A stretch of DNA of 11,538 nt, taken from contig CAMPIF010000086.1 in the NCBI GenBank assembly GCA_946886245.1, positions 1 to 11,538 of the forward strand, given 5' to 3'. The stretch comes from Ectopseudomonas composti. GTDB taxonomy: Bacteria; Pseudomonadota; Gammaproteobacteria; Pseudomonadales; Pseudomonadaceae. The position numbers and the translations under genes are program-made. The notes beneath the pieces are model-generated. The model had not been told where the DNA came from, searched no databases, and worked only from the letters and a program-made list of their open reading frames with translations. Below are positions 4,326 to 6,160 of the stretch, piece by piece (positions within the stretch are counted from its first letter, which is position 1; each line of letters begins with the position of its first letter).

Positions 4326-4332
4326 CCCGACC

Positions 4333-4926
4333 ATGCCGCTGTTCGCCTGTGGGAGCGAGCGTCGCGAGCGAAGCGTTCGACATCGCCCATGTTCGCGAGC
4401 AGAGCTCGCTCCTGCGTTGAAGGCGCAGCGCGGTTTTACCCTGATCGAGCTGCTGGTGGTGCTGGTCATTCTCGGCAGCCTGATCGGCCTGGCGGTACTC
4501 AGCACCGGCGTCGCCGGGCCGGCACGCGAGCTGCGCAGCGAGGCCGAGCGCCTCGGTGGGCTGATGGGCGTGCTGGTCGACGAGGCGGTGCTGGACAATC
4601 GCGAATACGGGCTGAGTTTCACTCGCGACGGTTACCGGGTGCTGCGCTACGACCCGCAGCGCGGCGAATGGCAGGCGCTGGATCGCCAGGCTCATCGCCT
4701 GCCGGAGTGGGCCGAGCTGGCATTCGAGGTGGAGGGCGAGGCCTTGAGCCTGACAACTGATGACAGTGCTGATACGCCACAGTTGCTGATCCTCTCCAGC
4801 GGTGAAATGACGCCCTTCCGTCTGCGCCTGGCCGAACGTCGTCGTGAAGGCCTGCGCCTACAGTTGTCCAGCGATGGCTTCGGTCTGCCGCGTGTCGAGG
4901 AACTGGGCACGAGGCGCTCGCGATGA
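4333..4926 (+). CDS. gspH: GspH/XcpU, minor pseudopilin with a repeat-derived leader
   Basis: The mature part, GFTLIELLVVLVILGSLIGL onward, with VLSTGVAG and DEAVLDNREYGL, is clearly the minor pseudopilin XcpU, which sits near the pseudopilus tip. Mature Glu5 is present. The upstream end is odd. The frame runs back through a repeat element (4348-4412) to the ATG at 4333, giving a 34-residue, strongly basic leader (MPLFACGSERRERSVRHR...), against roughly 6 residues for other XcpU proteins as I recall. The only other in-frame start-like codon in reach is TTG at 4417, which would give a normal leader (MKAQRG) but has no Shine-Dalgarno, only the repeat's stem, upstream. The ATG at 4333 lies 7 bases after the gspG stop and could be used by coupling. 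The end overlaps gspI by 4 bases (ATGA). Confidence 0.93.
   Translation: MPLFACGSERRERSVRHRPCSRAELAPALKAQRGFTLIELLVVLVILGSLIGLAVLSTGVAGPARELRSEAERLGGLMGVLVDEAVLDNREYGLSFTRDGYRVLRYDPQRGEWQALDRQAHRLPEWAELAFEVEGEALSLTTDDSADTPQLLILSSGEMTPFRLRLAERRREGLRLQLSSDGFGLPRVEELGTRRSR
4348..4412. repeat. REP-type inverted repeat read through as gspH leader codons
   Basis: GGAGCGAGC (4352-4360) pairs with GCTCGCTCC (4404-4412), with further internal pairing (GTCGCGAGCG against CGCGAGCAGA). The element starts TGTGGGAGCG at 4348. Its reverse complement matches the repeat at 5309-5370 closely at both ends, so the two are copies of one family in opposite orientation. It contains no stop codon in the gspH frame. 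Confidence 0.85.
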
Positions 4927-5306
4927 GGCCAGTACGCGGCTTTACCCTGCTCGAAGTGCTGGTGGCCCTGGCCATTTTCGCCCTGATTGCCGCCAGCGTG
5001 CTGACTGCCAGCGCACGTAGCGTGCGCACGGCCAGCCAGCTCGAAAACAAGACCCTGGCCATGTGGGTGGCGGACAACCAGCTGACCGAGCTGCAACTGG
5101 CCGACACGCCACCGGCTGATGGCCGCGACCAGGGCCAGGTGGAGTTCGCCGGCCGTCGCTGGTCGTGGCAAAGCGAAATCCAGGCCACCAGCGAGCCGGC
5201 CATGCGCCGCGTGACGCTGTGGGTCGCCGCCGAGGAGCGCGGCGCCAGGGGCGATCTGCGTGAGCGGGCGCAGGTCACGCTCAGCGGTTTCCTGGGGGCG
5301 CCATGA
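4923..5306 (+). CDS. gspI: GspI/XcpV, minor pseudopilin
   Basis: This 127-residue minor pseudopilin nucleates the tip complex with GspJ and GspK in this family. The leader MRPVRG is followed by FTLLEVLVALAIFALIAASV with Glu at mature position 5. The globular part carries NKTLAMWVADNQLTELQL, the conserved XcpV segment, and the protein ends VTLSGFLGAP. The length is typical. The ATG overlaps the gspH stop (ATGA). The last ten codons plus the stop are duplicated 183 bases downstream (see the direct repeat), leaving this copy intact. Confidence 0.96.
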   Translation: MRPVRGFTLLEVLVALAIFALIAASVLTASARSVRTASQLENKTLAMWVADNQLTELQLADTPPADGRDQGQVEFAGRRWSWQSEIQATSEPAMRRVTLWVAAEERGARGDLRERAQVTLSGFLGAP

Positions 5307-5318
5307 TGCGTAGGAGCG
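5273..5318 (+). repeat. Left copy of a 46-base direct repeat (gspI tail and gspJ start)
   Basis: Bases 5273-5318 and 5456-5501 align without gaps at an offset of 183, with 40 of 46 identical. Each copy contains the last gspI codons, the stop, ATGATG and a GGAGCG repeat end. Four of the six differences fall within gspI codons (5276, 5279, 5291, 5300), all third positions and all synonymous. The other two (5309, 5312) lie beyond the stop. Confidence 0.9.
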
Positions 5319-5370
5319 AGCTCTGCTCGCGAATCCGTGGCGACGCCATTTCGCTCGCGACGCTCGCTCC
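5309..5370. repeat. REP-type inverted repeat between gspI and gspJ
   Basis: GGAGCGAGC (5313-5321) is complementary to GCTCGCTCC (5362-5370), and CTGCTCGCGA faces TCGCTCGCGA inside. It is the same family as the element at 4348-4412 but in the opposite orientation. It begins directly after the ATGATG that follows the gspI stop. Confidence 0.85.
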
Positions 5371-5375
5371 AGTCC

Positions 5376-5450
5376 GTAGGGTGGGCCGGGCGGCGCTCCG
5401 CTTCAGCCCACCAACAGCGGCCAGCCTTGGTGGGCTAAAGCCCACCCTAC
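5376..5450. repeat. Second inverted repeat (GTAGGGTGGGC family) between gspI and gspJ
   Basis: GTAGGGTGGGC (5376-5386) pairs exactly with GCCCACCCTAC (5440-5450). Inside, AGCCCACCAA (5405-5414) pairs with TTGGTGGGCT (5427-5436), and GGTGGGC-taaa-GCCCACC (5429-5446) is an alternative tight hairpin. It is a different family from its REP neighbour and resembles the GTAGGGTGCGC repeat after gspM in its outer GTAGGGTG/CACCCTAC ends. Confidence 0.8.
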
Positions 5451-5455
5451 CAACT

Positions 5456-5501
5456 GGTGACCCTCAGCGGTTTTCTGGGGGCTCCATGATGTGTGGGAGC
5501 G
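5456..5501 (+). repeat. Right copy of the 46-base direct repeat, supplying the gspJ start
   Basis: This copy still spells the gspI ending VTLSGFLGAP-stop, now untranslated as gspI. It provides the TGGGGG ribosome-binding stretch (5476-5481) and ATGATG (5486-5491) that gspJ most likely uses. It ends in TGTGGGAGCG, the same ten bases that open the repeat at 4348, and these are read as gspJ codons Cys-Gly-Ser. Confidence 0.88.
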
Positions 5502-6160
5502 CTCAGCGCGGCTTCACCCTGCTGGAGCTGTTGATTGCCATCGCCATCTTCGCCCTGCTGGGCCTGGCCACCTACCGCATGCTCGACAGCGTGCTCAGCG
5601 CCGATGCCGTCACTCGCGAGCACGAACGTCAGTTACGCGAGTTGACCCGCGCCCTGTCAGCCTTCGAGCGCGATCTGCGCCAGGTCACGGTACGGCCGAT
5701 TCGCGATGCTTTCGGTGATGCCCAGCCGGCGCTGCACGGCGATCTGGCTGATGCCACGGCGCTGGAACTGAGTCGCGTCGGCTGGCGCAACCCGCTCGGC
5801 CAACCGCGTGCCGAGGTACAGCGGGTGCGTTGGCAGCTCAGTGGCGAGCAGTGGCAGCGGCGTTACTGGCGCGTGCTGGATCGCGCGCAGGACAGCACGC
5901 CGCAGATCCAGCAGGCGCTCGATGGCGTCGAGTCATTGAGCCTGCGCTATCTGGACAAGGACGGCCAGTGGCAGCCTGACTGGCCGCCAGCCAATGCTTC
6001 TGGCGACGGTTTGCTCACCGAGCTGCCGCGTGCTGTGGAGCTACGCCTGCAGCATCGCCGCTATGGCGAGCTGCGCCGTCTGCTGCGTCTGCCTGATCTG
6101 CCGGCGCAGAGCTCTACCGGCGTGCCGCCAGAGGATTCTAACGAGGCGCCGCCGTCATGA
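5486..6160 (+). CDS. gspJ: GspJ/XcpW, minor pseudopilin
   Basis: The 224-residue precursor has leader MMCGSAQRG followed by FTLLELLIAIAIFALLGLAT, with Glu at mature position 5. Conserved XcpW segments follow: ALSAFERDLRQV, GWRNPLGQ, RYWRVLDRAQDS and RYLDKDGQW. With GspI and GspK it forms the pseudopilus tip. The C-terminal 20 residues are Pro/Ser/Glu-rich and probably disordered. The start is a choice. ATG 5486 (or 5489) lies in the right copy of the direct repeat, just after TGGGGG. The frame is also open back to ATG 5303, overlapping the gspI stop, but that would put a 70-residue repeat-encoded leader before the cleavage site. I prefer 5486. The leader residues CGS are encoded by a repeat end. 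The stop overlaps gspK (ATGA). Confidence 0.93.
   Translation: MMCGSAQRGFTLLELLIAIAIFALLGLATYRMLDSVLSADAVTREHERQLRELTRALSAFERDLRQVTVRPIRDAFGDAQPALHGDLADATALELSRVGWRNPLGQPRAEVQRVRWQLSGEQWQRRYWRVLDRAQDSTPQIQQALDGVESLSLRYLDKDGQWQPDWPPANASGDGLLTELPRAVELRLQHRRYGELRRLLRLPDLPAQSSTGVPPEDSNEAPPS

Follow-up and report, generated by a model that had tools for sequence, protein, structure and literature searches.

The repeat block that separates gspI from the conserved part of gspJ in Ectopseudomonas composti is probably an expansion of the gspJ prepilin leader that was built from REPINs. The window, as we call the whole stretch of 11,538 nucleotides that was analysed, encodes a Pseudomonas type II secretion operon with profile matches to gspC and to gspE to gspM; the closest named locus is that of Pseudomonas sp. 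8O (L001), whose GspI is 100% identical. The genes and elements from gspH to gspJ lie on the forward strand. gspH (4333..4926; TIGR01708, 3.2e-38, from residue 32) carries an in-frame REPIN A in its leader, and gspI (4923..5306; TIGR01707, 1.3e-37; PF02501) encodes a minor pseudopilin with the C-terminal end VTLSGFLGAP-stop. gspJ (5303..6160) comprises 285 residues when its frame is read from the left ATG, of which residues 69-262 match TIGR01711 (7.2e-65); its prepilin motif QRG/FTLLE is found at 5504-5527, gspJ-homologous sequence begins at about 5504, and the mature part, going by prepilin biology, presumably begins at 5513.

Two 46-base copies at 5273-5318 and 5456-5501, with a spacing of 183 bases, are identical at 40 of 46 positions, in agreement with the original prediction, while among 200 first-order Markov sequences derived from 4923-6160 no 46-mer pair matched at more than 32 of 46. 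With the same structure present in nine distinct junctions from several named species as well, the probability of chance similarity or of an assembly artefact is practically negligible. Read in the gspI sense, the left and right copies both spell VTLSGFLGAP-stop, and the four differences within gspI codons (GTC/GTG, ACG/ACC, TTC/TTT and GCG/GCT) are without exception third-position and silent, as had been noticed from the start. Self-comparison and the junctions of relatives delimit the two units. The left one consists of working gspI codons (5273..5302), followed by ATGATG (5303..5308), the upstream gspJ start seen in the open reading frames and junction rows, the first ATG of which overlaps the gspI stop (ATGA). 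The right one is a duplicated gspI tail (5454..5485) that lies within the gspJ frame and is not translated as gspI; a second ATGATG (5486..5491) follows, a possible downstream gspJ start with the short leader MMCGSAQRG and the same ribosome-site score as the left start. The repeat had been described as gspI tail plus gspJ start. The gspI tail and ATGATG are indeed repeated, but each copy ends with the nine-base head of REPIN A (GTAGGAGCG at 5310, GTGGGAGCG at 5493) and not with gspJ sequence; within the right copy, junction comparison identifies TGTGGGAGCG (5492..5501) as an apparent remnant of this head. Homology of the right copy also extends to the left of the 46-base edge, beginning with CTGGTGACC (5454), which matches leucine-valine codons in gspI of other species (L015, L058).

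The sequence between the copies, treated as an anonymous block in the original prediction, consists of two REPINs. REPIN A (5310..5370; GTAGGAGCGAGC ... GCTCGCTCC) is a variant that sits in frame within the leader of gspJ, with inverted arms at 5313-5333 and 5350-5370 that are 76% complementary; fuller versions occur in L005, L008, L010, L013 and L018, and the GTAG tag is altered in some. REPIN B (5376..5450; GTAGGGTGGGC ... GCCCACCCTAC) is 75 bases long and belongs to a second REP family, its inverted arms (5369-5386 and 5440-5457) being 89% complementary. In both elements a spacer separates two inverted GTAG-tagged palindromes. A CAACTGG joint (5451..5457) connects REPIN B with the right gspI tail, here as in the rest of the window group, and the same seven bases follow B elsewhere in L030 and L181. 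A further REPIN-like pair of another REP type (GTAGGAGCGGC ... GCCGCTCCTAC) is located between gspE and gspF, at 2584-2653 of the window.

Both families are multicopy. Allowing two mismatches and counting arms singly, 11 of 12 related genomes contain 9-80 strand-wise matches to A and 5-88 to B (G014 has none), and the reversed patterns gave no match in any of the 12. In a scan of 30 RAYT loci, REPIN A was found on both sides of the RAYT gene (PF01797, Y1_Tnp) in L091, L100 and L107; the L091 gene contains an internal stop. REPIN B, by coordinates, adjoins PF01797 matches that are near the cut-off, on both sides in G100 and G199 and on one listed side in G325, and the G199 match likewise contains an internal stop. 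Since A and B each lie beside PF01797 genes of their own, they are REP families with different RAYTs. Two guessed REP-like motifs had no match in 180 loci. Separately, G292 has 20 listed Y1_Tnp matches of 158.5-158.6 bits, far above the RAYTs, which are probably copies of an IS200-type element. A and B resemble the REPIN/REP elements and RAYT (TnpA-REP) partners described in the literature (Bertels and Rainey 2011, PMC3116915; PMC8266576) in being GTAG-tagged imperfect palindromes in inverted pairs, with many copies per genome, some of them beside Y1_Tnp genes. In contrast to the mainly extragenic REPINs described there, the two families here occur in frame in prepilin leaders, A and B inside the open gspJ frame and A also inside the gspH frame, and one block includes a duplicated piece of the preceding gene.

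The history of the block can be read from the junctions of relatives. The comparison covers 29 rows (the window, L001-L016, L018, L025 and L054-L063), of which 23 are distinct once six duplicates with identical junctions (L016, L054, L055, L057, L059 and L060) are dropped; L024, a duplicate of L001, and L017 together with more distant loci outside the group were also excluded. Nine distinct junctions are empty or short, five contain A alone, as in P. alcaliphila, and in nine, among them Pseudomonas sp. 8O, both REPINs are followed by a further gspI tail. Empty-site strains, for which the original prediction had suggested looking, do exist (L002, L003, L007, L011, L014, L061 and L062), and the short class further includes L025 and L063 with 18 and 15 additional bases, respectively. 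At the most compact junctions the GTG or ATG of gspJ overlaps the gspI stop and the QRG motif follows four codons on. Each of the five A-only alleles has a single gspI tail, and an A+B allele devoid of the right tail was not found among the 29 rows. L009 (P. guguanensis, 4331-4747) contains three gspI tails and two successive A+B units before gspJ, with 121 open codons; the three tails indicate that units of gspI tail, A and B multiply. L002 and L003 are empty, yet both gene trees place them with A+B relatives of the window, so that loss or replacement of the block may occur as well; the junction sequence of these two resembles that of P. sediminis (L007). Inspection by eye of 20 listed loci from 19 further genomes of the genus revealed no REPIN-like block at the junctions. 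LAPT leaders (CTCGCNCCTAC), present between gspI and gspJ in L025 and between gspG and gspH in L063, are similar to the end of REPIN A and are perhaps scars of lost insertions.

Two similar copies that flank a mobile block could be taken for the target-site duplication of one composite element. Usual target duplications are shorter than these copies, and this explanation was rejected as very improbable, because the A-only alleles are all one-tailed and because the repeat contains the REPIN's own head.

Throughout the group the inserts preserve the gspJ frame. It is open from the gspI-overlapping start in all 29 rows, for up to 121 codons; in 21 of the 21 rows tested (14 with inserts) the leader is free of stops and divisible by three in length, and the tail-to-tail spacings (183, 195, 186, 168 and 180) are all multiples of three. 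The other two forward frames of the nine A+B alleles hold 2-6 stops (with the gspI stop set aside) and 2-7 stops, respectively. The five A-only inserts hold 0-1 stops in either other frame, so that their openness alone proves little. In L005 and L008 the only in-frame ATG, GTG or TTG of gspJ is the one that overlaps gspI; hence gspJ translation must cross the REPIN there, unless a rarer start codon is used. On sequence grounds we infer that the upstream gspJ start is used for translation and that in-frame REPINs are tolerated by the cleaved prepilin leader; prepilin peptidase cuts off this leader, which would explain the tolerance of in-frame inserts. Variable sites in the leader are distributed over the codon positions as 20/11/20 (8 rows), without a third-position excess, which indicates that the frame is kept without conservation of the peptide sequence; on the basis of this distribution, selection at the protein level on the leader encoded by the REPINs was rejected.

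According to the original prediction, the right copy restores a ribosome site and ATG for gspJ. Both are present, and the anti-Shine-Dalgarno score is identical upstream of the two window starts (-8.4 kcal/mol each), but gspJ does not depend on them for a start, the left ATG at 5303 opening a frame through the whole block. It is nevertheless possible, albeit unlikely, that the insert is untranslated, in which case the gspI tail would have replaced a lost ribosome site and start, gspJ would begin at 5486 and the upstream frame would be incidental. The right tail of the window would then provide a ribosome site equal to the native one and a short leader, and the duplication, by supplying a separate start, would have rescued a damaged operon. 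The RNA from 5270 to 5540 is predicted to fold with -138.1 kcal/mol (z -3.38 versus shuffles); a fold of this strength could slow ribosomes and hinder read-through, and it speaks for an untranslated insert. What argues against such an insert is that the nine A+B alleles differ in length and are nonetheless all in frame and free of stops, that L012 (-3.8) and L009 (-5.0) have a weak right ribosome site, and that a second tail is missing from all five A-only alleles.

A comparison of the tails separates the right copies from the left ones. Per 30 bases, the nine A+B genomes show mean differences of 2.17 between right copies and 2.53 between left copies, and of 5.0 and 4.93 between left and right copies within and between genomes, respectively. 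In eight of nine cases a right copy is closest to another right copy (L058 is tied), and the left copy of the same genome ranks 7th to 30th of 31 candidates, so that the right copy groups apart from its own left copy, an outcome on the side of the original prediction. The likeness of right copies across species has the pattern of a single old duplication that would later have spread by recombination. Among changes in right copies, judged in the gspI sense, 6 of 10 are silent and 4 of 10 non-silent, the latter carried by three of nine genomes, which indicates that right copies are not strictly held to the gspI sense; exchange with gspI alleles may account for the silent portion. In view of the non-silent changes, the idea that both copies diverged as working gspI is not supported. 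The second possibility offered at the outset, a left copy that drifted under selection after a duplication, is the best-fitting alternative, the silent differences being in keeping with a gspI-selected left copy: left copies evolved as gspI, and differences between left and right consequently fall mostly at silent sites. The estimate of one in 81 for four third-position differences was dropped as a strong argument, given that selection is needed on the left copy only and that right copies are partly non-silent. The left-copy end CCATGATGCGT resembles the right copy in the window, L001, L006 and L058, and GTGA-type starts are retained in L004, L009, L012, L015 and L056; the repeat looks longest in this window, for which local gene conversion would account.

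The original prediction also considered that the copies were joined by recombination with the operon of a related strain. The junction does appear to recombine between lineages, but a donor allele was not found in 398 genomes. The A+B haplotype occupies separate positions in the gspI tree and in the gspJ tree, and L058 groups with L010 in the gspI tree and with the P. sediminis group in the gspJ tree, both branches lying below the 95/80 mark. REPIN B together with the right copy shows lower divergence than gspI and gspJ combined in 35 of the 36 genome pairs, and p<0.05 was reached in 16 of the 36, where the pairs are not independent and the p values uncorrected; the significant ones include L058 versus the window group (6/6) and L012 versus the window group (6/6), and the difference between block and flank is non-significant in all eight L009 pairs and in L058-L012. 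Five comparisons were hand-picked after viewing the data, the 36-pair test of one measure having come later. Among these, the window and L058 differ at 14/251 positions in A, B and right copy versus 134/958 (p=1.4e-4), and the window and L012 at 2/75 in B alone versus 128/960 (p=0.0035; p=0.0096 for B plus right copy). L058 and L012 show a mosaic gspJ 5' end (5/150 versus 72/480, p=4.6e-5), and the comparison of the window with L009 gave p=0.14. Together, trees and divergence tests of block versus flank support part of the recombination idea of the earlier reading.

Recombination between species also favours an account in which the right copy is a piece of gspI from another lineage, brought in by one recombination between diverged operons instead of by local duplication. 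In line with this, all right copies differ from every left copy (there are 5 distinct right and 15 distinct left 30-mers). We nonetheless regard a foreign piece as improbable: a right-type tail without a left copy, i.e. as the sole gspI tail of a possible donor, was not found in 398 genomes with up to two mismatches, and the left copies of L008, L012 and L015 are just two bases off the right type, so that an old local duplication suffices. The donor pattern matched 12 of the 398 genomes, comprising seven known junctions that keep the left copy and five loci without a GspI or GspJ match.

How the REPIN-built leader could have arisen is summarised in the following scenario. REPIN A inserted just behind the gspI stop, within the few codons between the overlapping gspJ start and the QRG/FTLLE motif, as empty and A-only relatives show. 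REPIN B would then have joined the remains of A, with duplication of the gspI tail and the A head on its far side, probably through a tandem duplication via the CTGG match between the B flank and the gspI tail, after which the A of the right unit would mostly have been lost. A candidate source for B is found in L030 (1504-1585), where a B copy with a 98% match over the 75-base body is followed by CAACTGG and then by unrelated DNA; L181 in the close relative G001 has the same B flank and the same DNA beyond it, and with flank and following DNA in common the two appear to represent a single chromosomal site in two genomes. Among the seven long B copies listed outside the junction, only L030 has the CAACTGG flank. 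B may thus derive from this place together with its flank, meeting the gspI tail at CTGG. TnpA-REP is reported to cleave at CT dinucleotides (PMC8266576); the CT within the joint of B and tail is suggestive only. In a third step, supported though not proved, the block would have spread between species by recombination. Finally, ribosomes that start at the gspI-overlapping codon would traverse the block, and inserts and length changes would survive only in frame. The leader being removed by prepilin peptidase, the mature pseudopilin would stay unchanged, and the duplicated tail would also bring the gspJ ribosome site and ATG, a possible second start.

A similar insertion is present upstream. 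The gspH leader of the window contains REPIN A (GTGGGAGCGAGC ... GCTCGCTCCTGC) at 4349..4415, 72 additional bases compared with the empty gspH of L007. This in-frame REPIN A, located after an ATG that is common to the empty L007 allele, occurs in 14 of 23 distinct rows, and at gspH as at gspJ the frame is kept and free of stops; REPIN A is missing from gspH in L007, L009, L011, L014, L018, L025, L058, L062 and L063, of which L011 has a different, longer leader. In L010, L013 and L015 the only in-frame ATG, GTG or TTG of gspH precedes the REPIN, so that, barring the use of a less common start codon, translation must cross the element. REP-coded SRAELAP occurs in the leaders of several predicted GspH proteins (P0121-P0125 and P0127-P0129). 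Start calls for gspH and gspJ are inconsistent, with similar GspH leaders annotated as 20 or 34 residues.

REPs inside genes are not new as such. The main text of Di Nocera 2013 (PMC3733652) describes intragenic GTAG and CGTC REPs, many of them N-terminal, with clusters that encode 43-82 residues, and mentions GTAG elements of P. mendocina; it also points out (section 15) that REPs at N termini may in many cases be misannotated or escape translation. The elements of gspH and gspJ resemble the intragenic REPs described there in being in frame and N-terminal in their host genes, and go beyond them in that empty, single, composite and multiplied alleles exist at one site, along with the duplication of the gspI tail. 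The words 'pilin', 'pseudopil', 'gsp' and 'leader' are absent from the main text of PMC3733652, the gene list of which is in the supplement, and the gspI-gspJ junction does not appear in the titles and abstract starts of the listed literature on REPs, REPINs, in-frame palindromes, tandem duplication with REPs, pseudopilins and long leaders. Rickettsia palindromic elements, as summarised in section 15 of PMC3733652, are also intragenic, some of them N-terminal in expressed proteins. They differ from REPINs A and B in their host. To our knowledge, they also represent a different sequence family and are not tied to a cleaved leader. In-frame REPs are thus already known (PMC3733652); what appears to be new is the gspJ-leader series with its duplication of the gspI tail.

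A broader interpretation, which we put forward tentatively and at somewhat less than even chances, is that REPINs land recurrently in the prepilin leaders of minor pseudopilins, where the reading frame is guarded. REPINs would have been built separately into GspH and GspJ, units of ~56-65 codons (gspI tail, A and B) would multiply, and translated leaders of up to ~120 residues would alter the output or processing of GspJ and leave the mature protein untouched. In other lineages, of which only the proteins were seen, GspJ leaders contain WERLQPR (P0016 and P0019) or close variants of it (P0024 and P0025); WERLQPR is the translation of a third REP, GAGCGGCTTCAGCCGC, which is found beside RAYT genes in L087-L089 and L096. 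If leaders are recurrent landing sites, these WERLQPR-type GspJ leaders would be further cases. A region that is translated but then removed from the protein could let mobile palindromes enter a tight, overlapping operon without damage to it. The coexistence of empty, single, composite and multiplied alleles among close relatives makes the junction a natural series for following how REPINs join, multiply and recombine, and how they affect the translation of a minor pseudopilin.
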